Source: Schlesneria sp. (lineage in GTDB: Bacteria > Planctomycetota > Planctomycetia > Planctomycetales > Planctomycetaceae). Taken from it: a stretch of DNA of 64,000 nt. A program made the position numbers and the translations under genes. Under the pieces are notes generated by a model that ran no database searches, was not told the DNA's origin, and saw nothing but the letters and a program-made list of their open reading frames with translations. Of this stretch, positions 34,303 to 51,136 are shown piece by piece. The stretch lies in contig JAQGHU010000081.1 of assembly GCA_028291515.1 (NCBI GenBank), forward strand, positions 62,001 to 126,000. The letters run 5' to 3'. The stretch's first letter is position 1; each line of letters opens with the position of its first letter.

Positions 34303-35139
34303 ATGAATGCATCCGCTGCCATCATCGAAGCCCCGCACACGATCCCGCCGTTCGCCCCGGCTCGTCGAGTTCACAATTTCCGAGTGGAAGAACATGCGGG
34401 TTTCTTCCAGCGTCGCTGGCCATTGTTTCGTCCGATGGTGGGACTAGTCTTAGCGAGCCTGCTAATCCGATGGTCCGATTTTGACATTTGGGTCTCCAGC
34501 TTCTTCTACGATCAGACGACAGGCGTCTGGCCCTACGAATTGGCAGAACCGTGGCTCTCCATTTACCGACAGGGAACAATCCCCTCAATTGTCATGGGTG
34601 TCGCTGGCCTGATTGTTGGATTCGTTGGCCGTTGGATCTTACCCCGAGCAGAGTGGCGTCGCTCCAAGGCGATCCAGCGCGCCGGCCTGTTCCTTGGTCT
34701 GTCACTGGCGATCGGCCCTGGGTTGATTGTGAACGTGGGATTCAAGCAACTCTGGGGACGACCGCGCCCCATTCAGTGCGCTACATTTAACGGTGACAGA
34801 GAGTTCCTGCCCGTCGGGACGTGGGCTCGTGAGCGACACAGTAATTCGTCGTTTCCTTCCGGTCACGCCGCGGTGGCGTTCTATATGATGATGCCAGGTT
34901 TTGTCACAGCTAAACGCAGACCCTATTTGACGGCGGCGTTCTTTCTGACGGGCACGGCGTTCGGGCTCGGCATGGGCCTGACGCGCGTCATCCAGGGAGG
35001 CCACTTTGTCTCGGACATCCTCTGGGCGGGAGCCCTGGTTTATCTCACGGGGGCGGCCCTGGCGTGGATCATTTTACGCAACGACGACCTGACACTATCC
35101 GGGGAGACCGTCGTCGACGCGAAACAGCATCAAGCCTGA
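34303..35139 (+). CDS. PAP2-family lipid phosphatase
   Basis: 278-residue membrane phosphatase with the three PAP2 motifs: KQLWGRPRP, SFPSGHAAVAFYMMM and LTRVIQGGHFVSDILWAG. About five hydrophobic segments surround them. It probably removes phosphate from a polyprenyl or phospholipid phosphate, which fits with the upstream polyprenyl-phosphate-dependent glycosyltransferase. It converges on the next gene, overlapping its end by 10 nt. Confidence 0.92.
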   Translation: MNASAAIIEAPHTIPPFAPARRVHNFRVEEHAGFFQRRWPLFRPMVGLVLASLLIRWSDFDIWVSSFFYDQTTGVWPYELAEPWLSIYRQGTIPSIVMGVAGLIVGFVGRWILPRAEWRRSKAIQRAGLFLGLSLAIGPGLIVNVGFKQLWGRPRPIQCATFNGDREFLPVGTWARERHSNSSFPSGHAAVAFYMMMPGFVTAKRRPYLTAAFFLTGTAFGLGMGLTRVIQGGHFVSDILWAGALVYLTGAALAWIILRNDDLTLSGETVVDAKQHQA

Positions 35140-36098
35140 CTCCAGGCTAGTCCCAACGCTCCCAAGGCGTAGAACGTATACTCAACGTCAGTCGCCTGAT
35201 CCCACGTTGCCGCTCGAAATCCTCCGCTTGGCTGCTCCAGCGACAAAATGAATTGCTCGACTCGTTGGGGCGAGATCAGCGTTCGATCATCTAGGTCCAG
35301 GCAGGTCAGATAGCCCGTGAATGTCGATAAGGTATCGGCGAACGGAATTCGCGAGTTCGCCTGAAAGCCACCTTCATCGCTGCGCACGTCCTTCAAAAAC
35401 GCCAGCACATCCTCGCGCAGATTGGGGCCGACCTTCGCATGCAGTGTCAGCACCGCGACTGCCGCGGCCGTCGGATTTGTACCACTACGTTTCATCGGTG
35501 CGATCTCAACGAAGCCCCCGTCATCGCGTTGACGATCCAGGATGAACTTCACCAGCAGTTCAGGTGACGGCACTGGTTGGCCGATCAGCTCTTTGCAGAG
35601 GGCGACCAGAAACGAATGATAGGTGCTGCCAATCGCACCTTCCCGCGTCTTCGCATAGCCCCCGTCCGCGGTCCGGAAACCTTCCAGAATCTCCCCTAAT
35701 TGCTGTGGCCAGTTCGTATCTGCGTTCGCCAGCACATTGATTCCGGAAGCGACCTGAACAACGAGTGCGGAATACAGCCAGCTCACAACATCGATCACGC
35801 TGGCCTGACGATGTCGCGATGTCAACAGGTACTGGGACACTCGGCGGGCGTCGTCAGCATCAAAGGCCTTGATCGCAACGAGCGCGCGAATCCCGAATGC
35901 CGTGTAATACAGATCGGATTCGCGACCTTCAGGCTCGGCCTGGGGATCGTCGTTGGGCAACCCGCGACCGCCGAAACCACCATCGGGATTCTGTTGCGAC
36001 AGGAGAAACTGGCGATGACGTTCGCGTCGCGGCGCATCCAGACGAGTCAGACCCTCAGACAGTCGCTCATCCAGACGAAACAGATAAGGAGTTGCCAT
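35130..36098 (-). CDS. Prenyltransferase/terpenoid-cyclase repeat protein (GGTase-beta-like)
   Basis: 322 residues built of alpha/alpha-barrel repeats with the signature QNPDGGFGG, RTADGGYAK, QRDDGGFVE, RSDEGGFQA and EQPSGGFRAA, as in the beta subunits of protein prenyltransferases and in terpene cyclases. No DXDD motif is present and no alpha subunit lies nearby. It is last in the 43-35 kb minus-strand block and 135 nt downstream of the DUF116-polyprenyl synthase gene. Role unknown; a carrier or binder of an isoprenoid chain is plausible. Confidence 0.85.
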   Translation of the reverse strand: MATPYLFRLDERLSEGLTRLDAPRRERHRQFLLSQQNPDGGFGGRGLPNDDPQAEPEGRESDLYYTAFGIRALVAIKAFDADDARRVSQYLLTSRHRQASVIDVVSWLYSALVVQVASGINVLANADTNWPQQLGEILEGFRTADGGYAKTREGAIGSTYHSFLVALCKELIGQPVPSPELLVKFILDRQRDDGGFVEIAPMKRSGTNPTAAAVAVLTLHAKVGPNLREDVLAFLKDVRSDEGGFQANSRIPFADTLSTFTGYLTCLDLDDRTLISPQRVEQFILSLEQPSGGFRAATWDQATDVEYTFYALGALGLAWSQA

Positions 36099-36233
36099 GG
36101 ACTATTGAACCAACATTGAGTTGCCATGGCGTCAATCTGCGAGCGCCATCACAGAGGTAGTCAATCTCGCCAAGAGATTGGGTCTTCAAGGTCTACACCG
36201 CTCTCAATCTGCCTCTTCAACGCTTAGAGGCCA

Positions 36234-38096
36234 CTAAGAGTGAGCCGGTGCCAGCGGCAGCAATGTTTGCAGCTTCACCAGCGGTTCCGCTGGCGGAGCG
36301 GCAGGCGCTGCCAGGACCGTATCGATCAAGAAGTACAACAGGCGTCGCAGCGCGTCCGGCTGAACGTCGTCGGCCAATGCTTCCGCTCGAGTTCGGCACT
36401 TATCAACGAGGACTTCGGCGCGTTCGAAGACGCCCAATTGCCGATACAGGCGGCCGAGCTTTTCTGCACGAACCTGTGGTAGTAGCGTGCCTCGAATGAC
36501 CCCTTCCAATTCTTCGCGACCCGGCCCCTTGGCAGCGTCGAGAGCCAACGCCAGAAGAATCGTTGGCTTGGCCAACTCGGCATCGCGACCCGCCACCAAC
36601 TTGTTCGGAGCCTGCTCATCCCAGTCCTGCAGGTCGTTCAAAATCTGAAAGCCGACACCCAAGTGCCGACAGAAAGTGGGCACCATCGTTTCGTAAGCAT
36701 CCATCGGCCCTGCCATCCGCAGGCCAGCGTACAACGCGGCTTCGAATGCGGGCGAGGTCTTGAGCGCGTACAGCTTCATTGCATCCAGCGCGGTCAGCTT
36801 GATTGAATGCTCGCCTGTCCAGCGCAGCTCCGCTCCTTGCCCTTCACAAAGCTTGAGATGAGCATTGGCCAGCCGATCCAGAATATCGGCCGCGGCTTCG
36901 GCCCCCAGGTCTTTACGACCCTGGCTGATCAGTCGATAGCCTAGCCCGATCAGATAATCGCCGATGTTGATCGCCGGGCCAATTCCATAGCGCTTGTGCA
37001 ATGTCTCCTGGCCATATCGATACGGATCGTCGTCTTGGATATCGTCATGGACCAGCGAAGCTTTGTGAAAAGCTTCCATCGCGAGAGCCGTCCGCCGTAC
37101 CGATTCCGGGAACTCGGGAAGCGTCCCGTCAGAGATAATTCGCGTCGCGTCGCTCCCGGTGAGCGCGTCATATGCCGCCAACGTGATAAACGGTCGGAAC
37201 CGCTTCCCACCCTGAACCAGCCAATCCCGCGCAATCGATTCCGTCTCTGCCAGCAGAGTGTCCGCTGATCCTGATCCACCTCGAACGGCTGGTAACAGTT
37301 CGTCGAATTGCTCTTCGAACATCTGGTTCGACACGCGCATCATCGGCACGTAACCGGTCGTTCGATCTTCGGTCAGCGGTTCATATTTATCGAGGCAATC
37401 CCAGACCCAGGCCTCATCCAGCGTCGTGTTCTTGCAATCACCCGAATGCAGTGGGATCGCGTACGACGGAACGCCAGCCAGCAGGACCTTATCGATCGCC
37501 TTTTCCAGCACATTCAGGCAGGCCACGCCCAGGATTCCATCGACGTGACCTGAAATGATAATCTTCAGGACGATTGGCGACCCCTCGGCGACCAGCACCT
37601 TGTATCCCAGTTGCTCGGCTTTCACCTTGTAGTCGGCGATCGAACAGGCACCGCACTTTTCGCAGTCCAGTCCGAATTCATCGTAATCGGCGGGACAGCC
37701 ATCGGCGTGTTTCAGGCAGTGTGGTAACAGTAGCAATCGGCGTTCGAATGGAATCGCCAGGAACTGTTGCTTCCAGAAGAAATTTCCCACCAGGACCATC
37801 GCAAAACCGAGGAACTTCTCGGGTTGATTGAGTTGCTCCAACAGCTTGCGGCTGTGACCTTCCAATTCCGCCTTATTGAATGGCCGGCTGCGATCAAGCG
37901 TCCGTGCATACTGCTCGGCGGCAGACTTAATGTGCTCGCGCTGCTCCAGCGTTTCTGGCACCAGCTTCAGATGGGACGTGCTGCGGCGGCGCGGCTTATC
38001 ATCGGGAGCTTCCGATTGAGAAGGGGACTGTTCGACATCTGTCGGTTTCGCGGAGGTCGGATCATGTTCAATTTCGGCGTTGGTCGGAGCGATCAT
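36234..38096 (-). CDS. DUF116 fused to trans-polyprenyl diphosphate synthase
   Basis: 620 residues. The N-terminal part (about 100-240) is a DUF116 domain with a conserved Cys set ([34 protein letters not shown]) that could hold an Fe-S cluster. The C-terminal part (about 285-600) is a polyprenyl synthetase: [17 protein letters not shown], first Asp-rich motif [22 protein letters not shown], and [15 protein letters not shown] as the second, where the usual first Asp is Asn. It should condense isopentenyl diphosphate with an allylic diphosphate; chain length cannot be read off. ATG 38096 chosen over upstream starts. The fusion itself is unusual. Confidence 0.9.
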
Positions 38097-38200
38097 GAAT
38101 TCGAACTTCCTTGGCGATCCAGTCCATTGGTTCTTGGAAAGCCGGGGGCAGGTCATCGACGATCGGACTCGGAGTCCGACAATATCCAGGCAGGCAAAAC

Positions 38201-40021
38201 TCAAAGCGGAACGGCAGGATTATGTTGAGTTGTCGTATTGGAATCTACTGGCAGCAAATCGACAAGTCGGTCGGTATTTTCCAAAGCGCGGCTAAGTGCC
38301 GCAACTGTAAAGATTTTCGGATAGAGTCGCTCAAAATACCAGAGCTTGGCGAAGTACAGACCAATGGGAGCCGGTTGAGTGTACGAGCGATCCTCCACTC
38401 GGTCCACTAGCCAACTTAATCCGCGCAGGCATTCATCTCGGGCTGACGGCACCGAAATCAACGCATCGACTGCCAACGATGTCTCCTCGATCGACGACGG
38501 AGTTTGTCGGTTGCCGCCCCATCCCCCATCCTGATTTTGAACCGATTTCAACCAATGACTGGCTCGCTGGGCGGCAGGATCGTCAAGCCGATCCCAGTCC
38601 GCATAGGCCGCGAGTCCCTTTGAAGTCCCATAGGTCGGATTTTCTTCGTCCGCCGCGAATTGGTTCCCAAACCACAATGGAAACCAGGTTCCATCCGGTC
38701 GCTGCGTTCGACCGAGGAAAGCAAACCCGGCTTTGACCGCTCGTTCAGTTCTTGAAGAGAATGAAGAGGTCGCGTCCGAACCGCAATTCCGTTGCCAGGC
38801 ACGAATCGCCCGTAAAGTATGCGCGGTCAGATCGGGCGAACTGCGATCAAACGGCAACGCTCCCCACCCGCGACAGAAAGTCGGCCAGCCGCCATCGCTG
38901 TTCTGCAGATCCAGTAACCACCCGATCGCATCGCGAACCGCCGATCGCACTCTGTTAGACCCCGGACGCAATTTCAACAGTGCGAGAATGGCCCCAGGCG
39001 TATCGTCCGCATCCGGCACGCCCCCGGAAAGATTGGTCCAAGCCCATCCCCCCGGCGCAGCGTTCGTATAACGATGCACCTGACGATGCTGCTGCCCCAG
39101 CAGCCATTCGACAAGAATCTCGATTTGTGAATTCGAAAGTGACTCTTCCGGCAAGGCATTGATGCTGAGCGTCGTGACCCACGTCGCTAGGTTGGTGTCG
39201 ATCGGCCAACTGCCGTCCGGTCGCGCGGAATCAACGAGGAACTTCAATCCCAACTTGCCAACTGGATGATCGATCAGGCCCATGGAGACCAGGCTCATCG
39301 TCACGAAACTTGTCAGCGGAGTGGCTTCCAGGAACCCACCACTCTCGGGTTGAATCGATTCCAACTTGCGCAGCGTCGGCCGCACGGCCGCTTGTCGAAT
39401 CCAGCGAATCAATGGATTCCATGATGGAGCATGAAAGTGACGCGCCTGACCGATCGCAATCAGTGCCGGTAGCGCATAACTGACGACCGGCAACTTGATC
39501 ATCCGAAAGAAGCTGTGCGGCAGGCTTCCCAATTCAAATGGCAGCGGTGTGATCTGCTGCCAAGGTATCAGCCCCGCCAGAGCACACTGCGTCAGTATCG
39601 GAACTGAAAATGTGTGGTCTTTGCCATAGCGTTTTCGAATCGCGTCGAAACCGCCACATCTGTTGACGTACGCCTCGACCCGCCCAACCGCCACGGGATT
39701 GTCGTTGACCGCATTGGTCATTCGGAAGCTGGCAAAGACCAGCATACTCGTCGAGATATTGCTGCGGCTGAAGATCGTATCGCCCCAACCACCATCTTCG
39801 TTCTGATGTGCGACCAGCCACCGCAATCCTTGAACGATCAGAGGCTGATACAGAACTGCCGTATCAGCCCGTTCGCGAATCGCCAGTTGAAACGTCGCGA
39901 CGGCCGTGGCTGTCGACAGCGCCGATGCAGACAGCTCGCCCTCCCAATGCCCCGTGGCGGATGCCTCCTGAATGAGCGACTCCGCAGCCGTCGATTGAGC
40001 CTGTCGCAGTTTATCAATCAT
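38201..40021 (-). CDS. Class II terpene cyclase-like protein (squalene-hopene cyclase family)
   Basis: 606 residues. QW-type repeats ([66 protein letters not shown]) form the alpha/alpha barrel of squalene-hopene and class II diterpene cyclases. The protonating motif is [11 protein letters not shown], i.e. DXDD is kept. So it is probably an active protonation-type cyclase; the substrate may be squalene or a C20-C35 chain from the neighbouring synthase. ATG 40021 starts MIDKLRQAQ, the usual family start; a TTG at 40090 overlaps the RDD gene. Confidence 0.88.
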
Positions 40022-40074
40022 TGGCAATTCGTGATCCGGTTCTTGAGGAATGATGTCTTGTGCAGCGGTGAGTA

Positions 40075-40635
40075 CTATCTCTGCTCGCAATAGGCAAGAT
40101 TCTCCACACGCACCACCACTGTTCCTGCTAACCAGTCGCCAAACCTAAGGTGCCGCCGCGTACACAGAACAAAGAACGCGGCTGGAAAGACACCCAGGAA
40201 AATCGGATTGGTTTCCACGATGCGAGATACAGTCTGAATGGCAACCTGCCAGAACGACGCGCGCCGTCCATCGCTTGATCGGACGCATAAGCCAAACCAC
40301 CACTTTGCCGGTGTCGCGCCGAGACTCTCCGTCAGTTGATAGTACAGCAGGTAAAACAAGTAGAACGACAGGCCCTTCAACAAAGGATCAAAGTCCGGTA
40401 GCACGATGACGATCGACATCGCGGAAATCGCCGCCAGGAAAAAATCAGCTTCATTCGCCCAAACACGGCGTGCGCTACGATCCCCAATCAAACCGCGTTG
40501 AGTTGATTCTTCGACACCCCATCCTTGGCGCGACTGTCGGTCTTGCGGAGATCTGGCCAATTCTGTCCCGGAAAGATGGACGACCGGAGTGGCGACGCAT
40601 TCGTCCTCAGCGTTGGAGTTCTCTTCGTTCGACAT
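40075..40635 (-). CDS. RDD-family membrane protein
   Basis: 186 residues. A polar N-terminus is followed by RDD-domain helices (DFFLAAISAMSIVIVLPDF, GLSFYLFYLLYYQLTESLGATPAKWWFGLCVRSSDG, and VFPAAFFVLCTRRHLRFGDWLAGTVVVRV). The family is a small membrane domain of unknown function, sometimes tied to transport. It lies between the ferredoxin-like and the cyclase genes in the same direction. Confidence 0.82.
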   Translation of the reverse strand: MSNEENSNAEDECVATPVVHLSGTELARSPQDRQSRQGWGVEESTQRGLIGDRSARRVWANEADFFLAAISAMSIVIVLPDFDPLLKGLSFYLFYLLYYQLTESLGATPAKWWFGLCVRSSDGRRASFWQVAIQTVSRIVETNPIFLGVFPAAFFVLCTRRHLRFGDWLAGTVVVRVENLAYCEQR

Positions 40636-40676
40636 CGCGCAGTCCAGAAACGTGGAGGCGGCCACGAGAAAGAATA

Positions 40677-41774
40677 TTACAAATCCAGCGCGTCGAGGCC
40701 GTCCATCAGGTCATCCAAGTCATCGCGAGGTTTCTCGGCCTGATCTAACTGTCGCTTTGGCAAACCAATCGCTGCTCCGACCGCTTCGCGACCATCGGCG
40801 ACCAGTTCCGTGTCCCGTTCCAGTACGGCCATTTCCAGTGCGGTTGGCGCACCAAACAATTTGGAGAGATCGATCTTGAAGTCTTCGACCGGTCCACCAT
40901 CTGCACCAGCAATCCCCGGCGTCTTATGCTCAGGGAAGATGATCGCGTTCACCGGGCAGACACGACTGCACGCGGGGCAACCCTTCTTACAGTTGTCCTG
41001 CTCTTCCACCAGGATTCGATCGGAATGATCGACGCCATAAACACCGAACAGGCAAAAATCGATGCATTCCATACAGTTCGTGCAGCGGCTGTAGTCGATG
41101 ACCGGATACCACCGTCGCCGCACATCAGCACCATCGATCACCGTCGGCGGTGCGGCTTCGGTCGAGTGCCCGTTCATCAAGCTGTGCAGATCCAATCCCG
41201 ACATCGTCTTCGCAGGCTCTTCGCGAGCGAGCGGCTCTGCCACCTGCCTATTAGTCGGCAGAATCGACAGCGGTGACGGTGCGCTCCCAAAGCTTCCCAA
41301 TTGCACCAGTGGCGTCGAAACCAAGTCCGCCAGACGCTGGATTTCGGTGAGATAAGTCTGCGGACTCGCGTCGTTTCGCAGATCGATGGCATAGATCAGT
41401 CGATTGGGAACATCCAGCGATCCGATCCCGCGCAGCGCCGGCGCTTCTTCTTCGGGATGCTCATCGTCGGTCTCAGCATCTTCAGCAAGGTTGAGACGCG
41501 ATTCCCCCTCTTTGCCTTTCACGCCGTTGCGATCCAGCACCCAGCGAATCGCGCGAGGATACAGCCAGCCCAGCACGACCAGATTGCCGCGTAACGATTT
41601 CAGCCACAGCATTCCGGTGTGATCGGCGGTCAGATCATAGAGGTGCGGAACGACAGAAACTTCGGCCGTTCCCGCCAGCATCAAACGCGTCGCGATCTCT
41701 TCTTCCAGTTGCCGCTTCACCGGGTTTTTCCCCGGCGATTGCGAGATCACAACGGTGAGTTTTCGTCCGGCCAT
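40677..41774 (-). CDS. 2[4Fe-4S] ferredoxin-domain protein
   Basis: 365 residues. The first 180 residues form a globular domain not recognised (KLTVVISQSPGKNPVKRQLEEEIATRL, NLVVLGWLYPRAIRWVLD). Then a bacterial-type ferredoxin with two clusters: CTNCMECIDFCLFGVYGV and CKKGCPACSRVCPVNAIIFP. The C-terminus is acidic and ends in DDLDDLMDGLDALDL. It is 34 nt after the lipoyl-carrier gene, and probably transfers electrons to an enzyme of the cluster. Confidence 0.87.
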   Translation of the reverse strand: MAGRKLTVVISQSPGKNPVKRQLEEEIATRLMLAGTAEVSVVPHLYDLTADHTGMLWLKSLRGNLVVLGWLYPRAIRWVLDRNGVKGKEGESRLNLAEDAETDDEHPEEEAPALRGIGSLDVPNRLIYAIDLRNDASPQTYLTEIQRLADLVSTPLVQLGSFGSAPSPLSILPTNRQVAEPLAREEPAKTMSGLDLHSLMNGHSTEAAPPTVIDGADVRRRWYPVIDYSRCTNCMECIDFCLFGVYGVDHSDRILVEEQDNCKKGCPACSRVCPVNAIIFPEHKTPGIAGADGGPVEDFKIDLSKLFGAPTALEMAVLERDTELVADGREAVGAAIGLPKRQLDQAEKPRDDLDDLMDGLDALDL

Positions 41775-41808
41775 GAAATACGTCCCTCAAACCACTTCGT
41801 CGAGTTGT

Positions 41809-42261
41809 CTAGTCGTTGAACTGATTCTTCAACAAACGCTGTGTCTGTTCCCAGCCCGCATCCAAAACCTTGACGTAGTCGGCAGGCGAAAGCAATGGCT
41901 GCGTGGTCTCAAACTCATACAGCCAACCCTTGTCGTAATTGTCAGCGTTGATCAGAGACGGATCGTTCATCAAAGCTTCGTTAAACCGCACGACCCGACC
42001 ATCGGCCGGCGCATACATCGTCGACACAGCTTTCGAGCTCTCGATTTCACCGATGGATTGTTTCTTGCGAACGATAGTGTCCGGATCGATCTGCCAGTCC
42101 AGAAAATAAACATCTTGCAGCAGTCGAACGGCATAAGACGTAAAGCCGACTCGCAGGTTTCCAGTTCCCAGCATCACCCACAAATGGGATTCAAAATAAG
42201 TTCGATCCACAGGAATGTGGGCCGCGAACTTTCCCATCATAAACACTAAAGGTTCGGACAT
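41809..42261 (-). CDS. GcvH-like lipoyl carrier protein
   Basis: 150-residue protein with the H-protein fold: ESHLWVMLGTGNLRVGFTSYAVRLLQDVYFLDW, then GEIESSKAVSTMYAPADGRVVRFNEALMNDPSLINADNYDKGWLYEFE. The Lys in ESSKAV is the lipoylation site. No gcvT, gcvP or lpd gene lies nearby, so a role in glycine cleavage is not supported by context. In this cluster it may be a dedicated dithiol carrier. ATG 42261 chosen since the upstream part reads through a hairpin repeat. Confidence 0.87.
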   Translation of the reverse strand: MSEPLVFMMGKFAAHIPVDRTYFESHLWVMLGTGNLRVGFTSYAVRLLQDVYFLDWQIDPDTIVRKKQSIGEIESSKAVSTMYAPADGRVVRFNEALMNDPSLINADNYDKGWLYEFETTQPLLSPADYVKVLDAGWEQTQRLLKNQFND

Positions 42262-42320
42262 GAAGAAACTCTGAAGACGATTCGGAAGGTTCTTCTCCTC
42301 TTTCCCGCATTTCTCCGTGT

Positions 42321-42386
42321 CCTCTGTGCCTCTGTGTTTCAAACTTCTTGGCTGAAAGAAGAACTGAAAACACAGAGGCACTGAGG
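42321..42386. repeat. CACAGAGGCAC-type inverted repeat in the terpenoid-cluster leader
   Basis: Two 19-bp arms (42321-42339 and 42368-42386) pair with one mismatch around a 28-nt loop; the arms read CCTCTGTGCCTCTGTGTTT and its near complement. Repeats of this CTCTGTGCCTCTGTG type are widespread in intergenic DNA of many bacteria. It lies between the small unknown gene and the lipoyl-carrier gene on the minus strand and could act as an attenuator or processing signal. Confidence 0.65.
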
Positions 42387-42415
42387 TCACAGAGCAAAGG
42401 CGAGGGGACAGGAGA

Positions 42416-42871
42416 TCATTCGGCGGGTGGTGGTTCCGTGGCTGGCACTACAGTACCCGACTTTGGCCCCATCCGAAAGTTTGCAGGCATCGGCGGCGGA
42501 GCCGCGGCGGGGAACTTCTTCAGGATCGCATCCAAGTCTGCCACGCAGCCATCCATCGAAATCACCGCTTGCTTGAAGTTGGTGTGGTCCGAAGCAATCG
42601 GCGAGTCCTTACGAAACTGATCGGCAGCCTCCCGCAACTTCCCAATTTTCTTCCGCAGCGTCGCGATGTAGTCGGCGGGATCCTGAACCTTCGGTTCCAA
42701 CGCCCGCGACGTATCAAACACAGTCCGCACGATCTGCATCAACTCGGGAAAGTCCTCGACGGTTTCGCTGTGCTTGACGAAGGTTCGCACCATCCAGGCA
42801 TGCGCAAAAATGATCTGGCACCGCGCGACAGCATCGGCGGGCGATAGTATTTGCGGAGAACTTTCCGACAT
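42416..42871 (-). CDS. Hypothetical protein at the head of the terpenoid-like block
   Basis: 151 residues, soluble and mainly helical (ILSPADAVARCQIIFAHAWMVRTFVKHSETVEDFPELMQIVRTVFD), with a Pro-rich C-terminal tail. No motif recognised. It is the first gene of the co-directional run from 42.9 to 35.1 kb. ATG 42871 begins MSESSPQILSP; an earlier ATG would add 14 residues. Confidence 0.65.
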   Translation of the reverse strand: MSESSPQILSPADAVARCQIIFAHAWMVRTFVKHSETVEDFPELMQIVRTVFDTSRALEPKVQDPADYIATLRKKIGKLREAADQFRKDSPIASDHTNFKQAVISMDGCVADLDAILKKFPAAAPPPMPANFRMGPKSGTVVPATEPPPAE

Positions 42872-43027
42872 CCAGACCTCGATCACAAACGGGTGAGCAT
42901 TGATTGAGATCATGCTACCGAGTTCGCAGGGTGAACTCCATTAATGGAAAGGTTGCGGACTAACGCTCGATTCCTCACGATGACTGCCTGTGACCAGTCT
43001 CGAATTCTCTCCGGAAGGACTGCACGA

Positions 43028-45517: not shown

Positions 45518-45694
45518 ACGATGCGGCCTCGATATTGACCGGTCGCGAACTTCTACATGAAGTGCTTGGGATTCATTTTCACGCATGGAACGAGTCTCCA
45601 GCGTGTCACCGCCGCCGATTGAATTGGCCTGCCTGAGCTAAAGTTTGTTCACACCCTGGCCCTGCGTTGTGCCACCGCCCGTCACTCAATATGC

Positions 45695-45870
45695 TGCCGT
45701 TTGCCCCGCTGGGCGTTTGTTCCCTCGAAGGAATAAACAGGAAGCCGGTGTGAATCCGGCACGGGACCGCCGCTGTGTGCGAGAAGGTTTCCGAGCAACA
45801 TGCCACTGCAGCCAACAGGCTGTGGGAAGGCGTTCGGAGACCGCTTTAACTCGTAAGTCAGAATACGGCC
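45695..45870 (+). promoter_or_regulatory. Cobalamin (B12) riboswitch aptamer
   Basis: Core features are present in order: AGGAAGCCGGTGTGAATCCGGCACGG (the conserved GTGxGAATCC... block and P4/P5 neighbourhood, 45739-45764), GACCGCCGCTGTG, then GTAAGTCAGAATACGGCC at 45854-45871 (B12 box-like segment). A P1 helix GCCGT/ACGGC joins the ends. Downstream, GCGGGGATGCC pairs with GGCATGCCCC (about 45873-45935), a candidate expression platform. It precedes the DUF1559 gene at 45990. Confidence 0.85.
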
Positions 45871-45989
45871 CTGCGGGGATGCCATGTGATACTTCGGCCT
45901 TAGGTATTACTGGAAGGCATGCCCCTGCGCAGCGTTGCGCACATTCCTTTCCACCGCCGAAGTTCCTGGCGCGGAAAGGAACCTTCCAA

Positions 45990-46970
45990 ATGCCCCGCCT
46001 TCGCCGAAACCGTCGCGGTTTCACCCTCATCGAACTGCTCGTCGTCATCGCGATCATCGCAGTTCTCATCGCATTACTGCTGCCTGCAGTTCAGCAGGCC
46101 CGAGAAGCCGCCAGACGAACCCAGTGCCAGAACAACCTGAAACAGATGGGCATCGCTTTCCACAACTATCATGATGTCTACAACAAGTTTCCCAAAGGCG
46201 GCTATGGGGGTGGAACGAGTACTCCTGCCCTCTTGGAGACAGCGAATGCTAAGGCCGTCCGATCGATGAGTTGGGGAACGGTCCTCTTACCCTACTTGGA
46301 TCAGGCGCCACTCTACAGTCAATGGGATCAAAACAGTTGGTATTTGCAACCAAACAATCTGCCGCTGTCGCAAACCATGCTGTCCGTGTTCTTGTGTCCT
46401 TCGAGCCCTCTTCCCAATTTGCGAAATAATGGCGACATCCCGTCGAGCCCTCCTGTATTTGCGCGGTCGGACTACAGCGGCAACTATGGCGAACGGGGCG
46501 TCCGGTGTTACCCGAGCACGAATTGTCAAAACAACTACAGCGACATCGGAGATAAGACAGGACAACCTCGCGGAACGATGCAGCTACAGGTCCTGGCAAC
46601 CGTCTATTGTCGGCCGCTGGGTCTTCGCGATATGGAAGACGGAGCCTCAACGACGATCATGATTGGAGAGGCTCCTAACGCTATTTTCGGTGCCTGGGCC
46701 AGCCACAAGAATGTGATGGACCAATGCGCACCGTTGAACGGTCACTGGTCATCGACATCCAAATGGGGAGGTTGCCAGTTCGCCCCAGTGGTAGGACAGT
46801 CAACACTCGGTTGTGACGTTGGACATCAGGACTTTCATAGCTATCACACCCAGGGGGCCACCTTTCTGTACGCTGATTCCTCTGTCAGATTCATGTCAGA
46901 GAACATCGACTACATGGTGTTCTCCGCACTGCTCTCGTATCGCGGCGGGGAGATTATTTCGAACCTGTGA
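45990..46970 (+). CDS. DUF1559 protein (pseudopilin-like) under a cobalamin riboswitch
   Basis: 326 residues. N-terminal prepilin-type signal [45 protein letters not shown], followed by the DUF1559 domain with aromatic/proline-rich loops and a C-terminal FLYADSSVRFMSENIDYMVF (H-x-G-like tail). DUF1559 proteins are abundant in planctomycetes; function unresolved, suggested to be surface/pili-like or linked to secretion. Start ATG 45990 with GGAAAGGAA upstream. A long upstream reading through the riboswitch is not coding. Confidence 0.9.
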   Translation: MPRLRRNRRGFTLIELLVVIAIIAVLIALLLPAVQQAREAARRTQCQNNLKQMGIAFHNYHDVYNKFPKGGYGGGTSTPALLETANAKAVRSMSWGTVLLPYLDQAPLYSQWDQNSWYLQPNNLPLSQTMLSVFLCPSSPLPNLRNNGDIPSSPPVFARSDYSGNYGERGVRCYPSTNCQNNYSDIGDKTGQPRGTMQLQVLATVYCRPLGLRDMEDGASTTIMIGEAPNAIFGAWASHKNVMDQCAPLNGHWSSTSKWGGCQFAPVVGQSTLGCDVGHQDFHSYHTQGATFLYADSSVRFMSENIDYMVFSALLSYRGGEIISNL

Positions 46971-49961: not shown

Positions 49962-50945
<984 letters not shown>

Positions 50946-51136
50946 ATTTGGGCCTTCGATGAATCCTGTGGAGACCAGTGACGAATGAGAGCAATTGTCC
51001 TCGGGTCCATTATTCAATTCTCACTTGCGGTCTCTATGGCTTTTCTTACAATCCGATTGTCGATTTGCACGCGATGCCTTGGCTGTTTGAAAGTTGCGAG
51101 AACTTCTTGCCGTCCCATTCATCTTGCTGACAGACC

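Follow-up and report, generated by a model that had tools for sequence, protein, structure and literature searches.

A conserved gene set around a DUF116-polyprenyl synthase fusion suggests a split, redox-coupled route to a cyclised isoprenoid

What would a class II terpenoid cyclase be doing in one gene block with a lipoyl carrier, a ferredoxin and a polyprenyl synthase that is fused to a cysteine-rich DUF116 domain? The question is raised by a stretch of 64,000 nucleotides (nt) from the planctomycete Schlesneria sp. (assembly GCA_028291515.1, contig JAQGHU010000081.1, positions 62,001 to 126,000), which is referred to here as the window. An earlier sequence-only reading had listed seven minus-strand genes in it between 35.1 and 42.9 kb. 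A check of the open reading frames (ORFs) finds all seven, and this observation stands. The answer favoured here, with somewhat better than even confidence, is a split pathway, coupled to redox chemistry, whose product would be a cyclised and probably long-chain isoprenoid modified by a radical S-adenosylmethionine (SAM) enzyme. The gene set seems to belong to a pathway that is ancient and widely distributed.

The fusion was used as the query against 149 planctomycete genomes, many of them incomplete (G### denotes a sampled genome, G000 being that of the window, and L### a locus). Some match was given by 146 genomes, mostly to ordinary polyprenyl synthases and in a few cases to DUF116 alone. 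Fusion-positive were 38 genomes: 35 at 281 bits or more, G098 on two contigs, and G028 and G075 with weak or partial matches. The threshold for the cyclase was a profile E-value of at most 1e-60, and that for the radical SAM family C5 was a profile score above 480 bits. The cyclase is found in 34 genomes and occurs together with the fusion in 33 (Fisher 1.3e-26). The fusion and the radical SAM gene share 29 genomes (Fisher 2.5e-23), while the cyclase and the radical SAM gene share 28 (Fisher 2.4e-23). Only G010 holds the cyclase without the fusion, and there the gene lies on a contig edge. The fusion is present without the cyclase in G028, G041, G065, G075 and G087; in G041, G065 and G075, short contigs cut the cluster.

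Outside the phylum, named genomes were scanned with the fusion profile, and the best 80 of 550 confirmed places were considered. Among these best 80, the records with matching fusion loci are titled Planctomycetota, Verrucomicrobia, Lentisphaeria/Lentisphaerae and Bacteroidota (for example, Draconibacterium aestuarii, L123), with one record each of Kiritimatiellota and Candidatus Zipacnadia; the phylum names are as given by the depositors. Sixty loci (L075-L134, of which several are truncated where a contig ends) have a match to the fusion, which is called by profile in 59 of them, and L135-L154 hold ordinary synthases. Named relatives with the fusion include Gimesia aquarii, G. fumaroli, Thalassoglobus polymorphus, Thalassoglobus sp. 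JC818 and Candidatus Uabimicrobium amorphum. Among the records not marked as metagenome-assembled genomes (MAGs), Gimesia, Thalassoglobus, Rhodopirellula and Draconibacterium carry the genes, and cultured bacteria appear to carry the gene set. In G. aquarii and T. polymorphus, the cyclase accompanies the fusion.

Within the planctomycete sample, 37 neighbourhoods of the fusion were fetched, covering 36 of the 37 positive genomes besides the window's own (G098 was left out and G105 gave two), and a counterpart was called at a profile E-value below 1e-8 and similar length. Apart from the ferredoxin (family C6/C7), further recurrent families are C4, a CobW/COG0523 GTPase; C8, a small protein in which four Cys are conserved; C5, a radical SAM protein, or C13, a B12-type radical SAM protein; and, in some loci, C9, a cysteine-desulfurase-like protein. 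Gene order was then compared in 91 loci with a called fusion, three duplicates having been removed; genes were adjacent when on the same strand and within 300 nt. Where both partners are held, the GcvH-like carrier adjoins CobW in 15/15 loci, C8 the ferredoxin in 12/12, the fusion the PF00432 protein in 38/39, the PF00432 protein the cyclase in 25/33, the ferredoxin the radical SAM gene in 23/31 and the radical SAM gene the fusion in 31/44. For the cyclase and the fusion themselves the count is 26/61, and for the ferredoxin and the fusion 7/40. A full run of radical SAM gene, fusion, PF00432 gene and cyclase is seen in 17 of the 91 loci, which belong to planctomycetes, Bacteroidota and, in one case, a Lentisphaerae record; the 26 loci with adjacent cyclase and fusion are other than these 17. 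The series that leads from the ferredoxin through the radical SAM gene, the fusion and the PF00432 gene to the cyclase recurs in Bacteroidota. As the ORF calling was simple, all these counts are lower bounds; in L047, L059 and L134, the fusion was not called despite a genome-search match there. The tree distances of four families also correlate (Mantel r 0.55-0.94, with 0/999 permutations as high), in a test whose permutations leave shared organismal history in.

Because of these co-occurrence and synteny results, the block is not regarded as chance. One might still see an ordinary neighbourhood, in which a common operon serves separate pathways, given that the RDD and small genes are not conserved and that the clusters are split in the window's family. 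Co-occurrence at Fisher values of 1e-23 to 1e-26, together with collinearity across phyla, already contradicts this for the core genes, and the idea is hardly credible. The sequence-only reading had set conserved synteny as its own check, and the cyclase, fusion and ferredoxin are indeed conserved together. Its wider interpretation holds to that extent; it had counted in the RDD and small genes, for which this is not so, and had overlooked the radical SAM and CobW proteins. The features of the block are as follows.

42416..42913, minus strand: small ORF (the earlier reading started it at the ATG at 42871)
41809..42261, minus strand: GcvH-like lipoyl-carrier protein, 150 amino acids (PF01597, 1.2e-23, on the longer ORF)
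40677..41774, minus strand: 2[4Fe-4S] ferredoxin protein (Fer4 matches)
40075..40665, minus strand: RDD membrane protein (PF06271, 7.6e-10)
38201..40090, minus strand: predicted terpenoid cyclase of class II (DXDD), probable start near 40021 (PF13243/PF13249)
39002..39013, minus strand: DADD catalytic-acid motif of the cyclase, residues 360-363 (conserved Asp, alignment with 1gsz)
36234..38204, minus strand: fusion of DUF116 and predicted polyprenyl diphosphate synthase, likely start near 38096 (PF01976, 3.5e-37; PF00348, 7.7e-39)
37398..37841, minus strand: DUF116 domain with seven conserved Cys (C163, C170, C181, C184, C187, C229, C257)
37032..37046, minus strand: first Asp-rich motif DDIQD of the synthase, with Ala/Ser at -5/-4 (A382, S383, D387, D388, D391)
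35130..36098, minus strand: PF00432 alpha-alpha toroid protein (PF00432, 2.8e-16)

Pfam returns the domains that had been named for these genes, i.e., PF00432, DUF116 with polyprenyl_synt, SQHop_cyclase_C/N, RDD, 4Fe-4S and GCV_H, and none for the small ORF. The intergenic gaps are 154, 34, 11, -16, -4 and 135 nt. The spacing had been described as mostly under 110 nt; two of the six gaps exceed that value. The negative gaps hinge on TTG starts; judged by the alignments, the cyclase more probably starts at an in-frame ATG near 40021 and the fusion at one near 38096. Similarly, the carrier most likely starts at 42261 and not at 42390, because the resulting 150 residues match its relatives.

The cyclase keeps Asp at all three acidic positions of DXDD in 22/22 aligned relatives, and its DADD aligns with the DVDD of the solved squalene-hopene cyclase 1gsz. 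The motif had been called intact, and so it is. By this motif at the squalene-hopene cyclase position, the protein is placed among the class II terpenoid cyclases, with cyclisation as its predicted activity. It was also considered as the hopene cyclase of the genome. Against TIGR01507 (squalene-hopene cyclase), the whole protein scores 115.4 bits and the best stretch in the genome search 76.5 bits, the cut-off being 431.1. The second cyclase match in the genome is a true squalene-hopene cyclase at 702 bits, and the candidate was rejected. A true squalene-hopene cyclase above the cut-off is encoded in 13 of 16 selected genomes (all but G028, G057 and G114); G087 has it while lacking the cluster cyclase.

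The alignment of the fusion has 33 rows; it leaves aside L036, a near-duplicate, L043 with its long fused ORF, the partial L069, and L047 and L059, in which the ORF was not called. In the synthase half, A382, S383, D387, D388 and D391 are each present in 33/33 rows, so that the first motif, DDxxD, is complete throughout. In the second Asp-rich motif, D524 is kept in 33/33 and Asp at position 527 in 32/33, while position 523 is Asn (13 rows, including that of the window) or Asp. Its two Asp-rich motifs make this half a predicted E-polyprenyl diphosphate synthase. The residue five positions before the first Asp motif limits prenyl chain length. Here, positions -5/-4 are Ala/Ser in 33/33, whereas the two best PDB matches, both geranylgeranyl diphosphate (GGPP) synthases, have Tyr-Ser and Phe-Thr. 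An aromatic residue stands at -5 in 6kd7 and 4kkm, and Ala-Thr occurs in 3oyr, which is named only as a trans-isoprenyl diphosphate synthase. With Ala at -5 against Tyr and Phe in the best-matching GGPP synthases, the earlier label of an IspA-type enzyme is doubtful.

These two enzymes could also be explained as a second triterpene route, in which the fusion gives farnesyl diphosphate (FPP), the cyclase works on squalene from the usual route of the cell, and the triterpene is tailored by the radical SAM enzyme in the way that HpnH acts on hopanoids. The nearest solved homologue of the cyclase is a squalene-hopene cyclase, FPP-synthase models recognise the synthase half with scores under their cut-offs, one locus (L125) has a fusion beside a true squalene-hopene cyclase and HpnH, and squalene-derived C30 carotenoids are described for the family Planctomycetaceae in the carotenoid passage of a review (PMC12078418). 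However, the cyclase stays at 115.4 bits against the hopene-cyclase cut-off of 431.1, and 13 of the 16 genomes have a true squalene-hopene cyclase besides. Ala at -5 of the synthase speaks against FPP, and squalene synthase is not among the recurrent neighbour families, though no search was aimed at it. This explanation is considered unlikely.

In the DUF116 domain, all seven Cys are present in 30/33 rows and are lost in L041, L045 and L068. Each of the 30 seven-Cys fusions sits in a genome with the cluster cyclase, the cluster radical SAM gene (C5 or C13), or both, and the genomes G087 (L041) and G028 (L068), where the seven-Cys set is lost, have no cyclase or radical SAM gene at the thresholds used. 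Among the matches to the fusion profile in a large protein collection, the best 120 all carry both Pfam domains. A fusion of DUF116 to a polyprenyl synthetase is noted for Pirellula staleyi (Psta_0175) in the DUF116 section of PMC5898192, where a flavodoxin-like fold is predicted for the domain and a role in electron transfer is argued.

Other forms of the fusion were also observed. L041:8622-10472 and L045:9054-10973 represent a second form in which most or all of the DUF116 Cys are lost; the L045 copy is the second in G105, where it occurs alongside a complete fusion. At L125:8191-19833, a fusion with degenerate Cys is clustered with a HemN/HutW-like radical SAM protein, a true squalene-hopene cyclase, HpnH and a flavin adenine dinucleotide (FAD) enzyme of the halogenase or geranylgeranyl-reductase type. 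An orphan family, D0 (about 188 amino acids; e.g., L038:10530-11072), immediately follows the fusion on the same strand in 16 loci, all planctomycete, two of which are the same place (15 distinct). Two D0 members give no NCBIfam match, and Pfam yields only an insignificant one for D0; a possible likeness to chorismate lyase is not confirmed by the family matches.

The radical SAM partner lies outside the window. In the same genome, its gene and that of a CobW GTPase are side by side on another contig (G000:C34:43606-46032, locus L074), and the system is therefore split in this genome. The protein is 67% identical to its counterpart in L038. The family keeps CxxxCxxC and three further Cys in 17/17, and two members match PF04055 at 2.3e-16 and 2.9e-21; on these grounds, it is placed in the radical SAM superfamily. 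C5 exceeds 480 bits in 29/149 genomes, all fusion-positive, and 18 further genomes have weaker matches only. Above 250 bits, C5 occurs in 38 loci (L074 included), C13 in seven and both in none, and the four sampled genomes with C13 in the cluster (G041, G107, G114, G145) give no C5 match at E<=1e-40. On the fusion tree, three swaps between C5 and C13 are inferred, whereas shuffling the labels gives 6.6 on average, the printed local node support being 0.19-1.0. The radical SAM partner does not classify as HpnH: the L043 protein scores 39 bits against TIGR03470, far under the cut-off of 225.05, and HpnH is not among the family matches of the window genome's own protein at E<=1e-10.

The ferredoxin has eight invariant cluster Cys in an alignment of 13 rows. 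For the PF00432 protein, the best PDB profile match is RabGGTase beta. The zinc-binding residues of prenyltransferase beta subunits are Asp, Cys and His; at these positions of the profile alignment, Asp is kept, Cys is replaced by Leu and His by Tyr, and the protein was dropped as a candidate protein prenyltransferase beta subunit. The small Cys protein C8 gave weak matches to designed repeat proteins and otherwise scattered single hits in PDB and NCBIfam, and these searches do not support an HdrA-like domain.

The carrier has its lipoyl lysine, K77, at 42031-42033; Lys77 and Glu74 are invariant in 15/15, and the protein is predicted to be lipoylatable at K77. Two GcvH models give 92.8 bits (cut-off 117) and 78.4 bits (cut-off 115.85), and the true GcvH of the genome, at 152.4 bits against the cut-off of 117, is encoded elsewhere beside gcvPA. 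A role as the GcvH of glycine cleavage was hence rejected, and the description of the carrier as an orphan is upheld. The carrier profile was tested in 13 genomes. Two of Rhodopirellula gave 161 and 157 bits, each with a weaker match that is taken for the canonical GcvH, and the planctomycete G031 gave 69 bits. In the ten genomes with Bacteroidota-type loci (Planctomycetes bacterium syqfu is the title of one), no score is above 95 bits and one genome gives no match; no carrier is recognisable there though the cyclase core of their loci is intact. A profile made from planctomycete sequences could, however, overlook a carrier that has diverged. Of the 37 neighbourhoods, 16 have a called carrier. 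For these reasons, it is treated as an accessory of bacteria of the Planctomycetes-Verrucomicrobia-Chlamydiae (PVC) group, and the earlier proposal of lipoyl dithiol chemistry as a core function is doubtful.

A sulfur route was also weighed: a cysteine desulfurase together with the lipoyl carrier would supply sulfur for insertion into the isoprenoid by the radical SAM enzyme, and the product would be a terpenoid that contains sulfur. The carrier with its invariant lysine, the cysteine-desulfurase-like gene (C9, Aminotran_5) in six loci and the GcvH-like LbpA carriers that act in sulfur oxidation elsewhere (in the available part of PMC6067878) would fit it. Yet, the desulfurase is present in a minority of loci and possibly serves Fe-S supply only, the window carrier is without the Cys pair that the same part of PMC6067878 gives for most LbpA, and the ten Bacteroidota-type genomes have no recognisable carrier. 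Such a route seems quite unlikely.

Beside the cluster at L117:7465-13085, L119:12611-16946 and L066:1156-5737, genes for quinoprotein-like propellers, an NHL protein, a Tat ferredoxin and a NapH-like protein were seen in distant phyla. The propeller, NHL-repeat, Tat-type ferredoxin and NapH-like genes belong to the Bacteroidota-type loci together with L066 and L094, with family matches that are all below cut-off. They hint at a membrane electron supply or a redox-active product. The product could be a membrane redox carrier, quinone-like or a prenylated aromatic, a view that these adjoining genes, the possible likeness to chorismate lyase of D0 in its 15 distinct planctomycete loci and the electron-transfer role predicted for DUF116 (DUF116 section of PMC5898192) would favour. 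On the other hand, the NapH-like, Tat-ferredoxin, propeller and D0 genes are lineage-specific, D0 has no NCBIfam family (two members) and an insignificant Pfam match, and aromatic prenyltransferases are not among the recurrent families, no search having been aimed at them. A carrier of this kind is very unlikely.

The pathway favoured here could proceed as follows. The synthase half of the fusion would elongate an isoprenyl diphosphate, probably beyond C20, and the DXDD cyclase would then protonate and cyclise the chain or a derivative of it. The radical SAM enzyme, encoded on the other contig beside the CobW GTPase, may modify the isoprenoid at unactivated carbons, with the B12-type family as its likely substitute in some lineages. 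Electrons for the SAM and auxiliary clusters would come via the 2[4Fe-4S] protein and the seven-Cys DUF116 domain, whose fusion to the synthase would keep the redox step and the substrate together. The PF00432 protein may bind or pass on the hydrocarbon, and the GcvH-like carrier may use its lipoyl group to shuttle redox equivalents or sulfur in PVC bacteria. The gene set, the catalytic residues, the co-occurrence, the gene order and the linkage of the DUF116 Cys with the other genes are observed; chain length, step order, the target of modification and electron flow are proposed.

Several points weigh against this proposal. The chain-length argument turns on a single position, -5, while the synthase finds its best whole-domain PDB match in 1wy0, a GGPP synthase of archaeal type, and models of farnesyl and GGPP synthases come high among the NCBIfam matches of the fusion, all below cut-off. 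G087 keeps a Cys-poor fusion with neither cyclase nor radical SAM gene, and the degenerate fusion beside a true squalene-hopene cyclase and HpnH in L125 means that fusion homologues can serve other routes. The N-terminal domain of the window's ferredoxin has lost Cys which, in other lineages, are retained by the equivalent domain, be it separate or fused, and the roles of DUF116, the PF00432 protein and C8 are putative. To these are added the carrier that is unrecognisable in the Bacteroidota-type genomes, the incompleteness of many of the 149 genomes and the shared history within the Mantel test.

A bolder version is offered only tentatively, as improbable on present evidence. In it, a long polyprenyl diphosphate would be made, be reduced or activated by the DUF116 cluster, undergo modification by the radical SAM enzyme and be cyclised with no passage through squalene; the result would be a new lipid class common to planctomycetes, verrucomicrobia and Bacteroidota. 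In PVC bacteria, the radical step could possibly take place on an isoprenoid that a thioether links to the lipoyl arm, and the PF00432 protein could be the partner for docking or transfer.

Not every gene of the neighbourhood belongs to this system. The RDD protein and the small ORF have no counterpart in the 37 fetched neighbourhoods at the profile and length limits given above, and their proposed membership of the pathway is not sustained. The RDD gene is within the operon here but is probably not part of the conserved system, and the small ORF, which has no match in Pfam or NCBIfam, is probably unrelated to the block. Downstream PAP2, glycosyltransferase and LptG genes were likewise rejected as members, since none of them has a counterpart at E<1e-8 in these neighbourhoods. 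The small ORF is separated from the GcvH-like gene by an imperfect inverted repeat at 42313-42394, inside the 154-nt gap upstream of the latter. It has 24-base arms, one with three mismatches, and the stretch is predicted to fold at -71 kcal/mol (z -6.6). The exact arm is absent from the other fetched loci, except for the own-genome copy of the same place, and the repeat looks like a small palindromic repeat element. Farther off, 45645-46970 and 49962-51017 of the window encode two much alike proteins with prepilin-type N-terminal signals on opposite strands, a family that is repeated in related loci (cluster C11).

In the literature searched, which covered few subscription papers, no description of the cluster was found; the DUF116 fusion alone is in print, in PMC5898192, which is also the only DUF116 paper found there. 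In the available text of a 2025 review of planctomycete metabolites (PMC12078418), there is no word beginning with terpen, nor cyclase, radical SAM or polyprenyl, and squalene words number three, in the carotenoid passage and the reference list. Fungal class I enzymes yielding non-squalene triterpenes, the subject of PMC9177416, are a possible precedent for the chain-length reading. If the proposal is true, a pathway to cyclised isoprenoids spanning several phyla has so far gone undescribed, and a new lipid class with possible biomarkers would follow. It would also give DUF116 a role and bring radical SAM enzymes and an orphan lipoyl carrier into terpenoid biosynthesis. The gene set provides concrete markers for locating the product by lipidomics.

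Parts of this set have parallels in known systems. LbpA of the sulfur-oxidising Hdr-like systems is likewise an orphan GcvH-like protein with a lipoyl Lys that works outside glycine cleavage; the window carrier has no Cys, whereas LbpA mostly has a conserved Cys pair, some archaeal members excepted (available part of PMC6067878), and Hdr genes are not among the recurrent neighbour families, though no search was aimed at them. The DUF116 domain (PF01976, COG1852, arCOG02078) and its fusion to polyprenyl synthetase are as described in PMC5898192, whose section on DUF116 does not mention the cyclase, the radical SAM protein or the cluster around the fusion. With the beta subunits of protein prenyltransferases such as RabGGTase, the common feature is the PF00432 toroid. 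Tes, GrsA and Gms are similarly of the radical SAM class and act on isoprenoid chains, and homologues of them in planctomycete MAGs are reported in the available part of PMC11868695; the L043 protein scores 40 bits against the Tes model, for a cut-off of 450. Finally, the squalene-hopene cyclase (TIGR01507) with HpnH, the hopanoid tailoring enzyme, is alike in its class II fold with a DXDD acid and in a radical SAM enzyme acting on an isoprenoid. Unlike that system, the one described here has the additional DUF116, ferredoxin, PF00432 and carrier genes.

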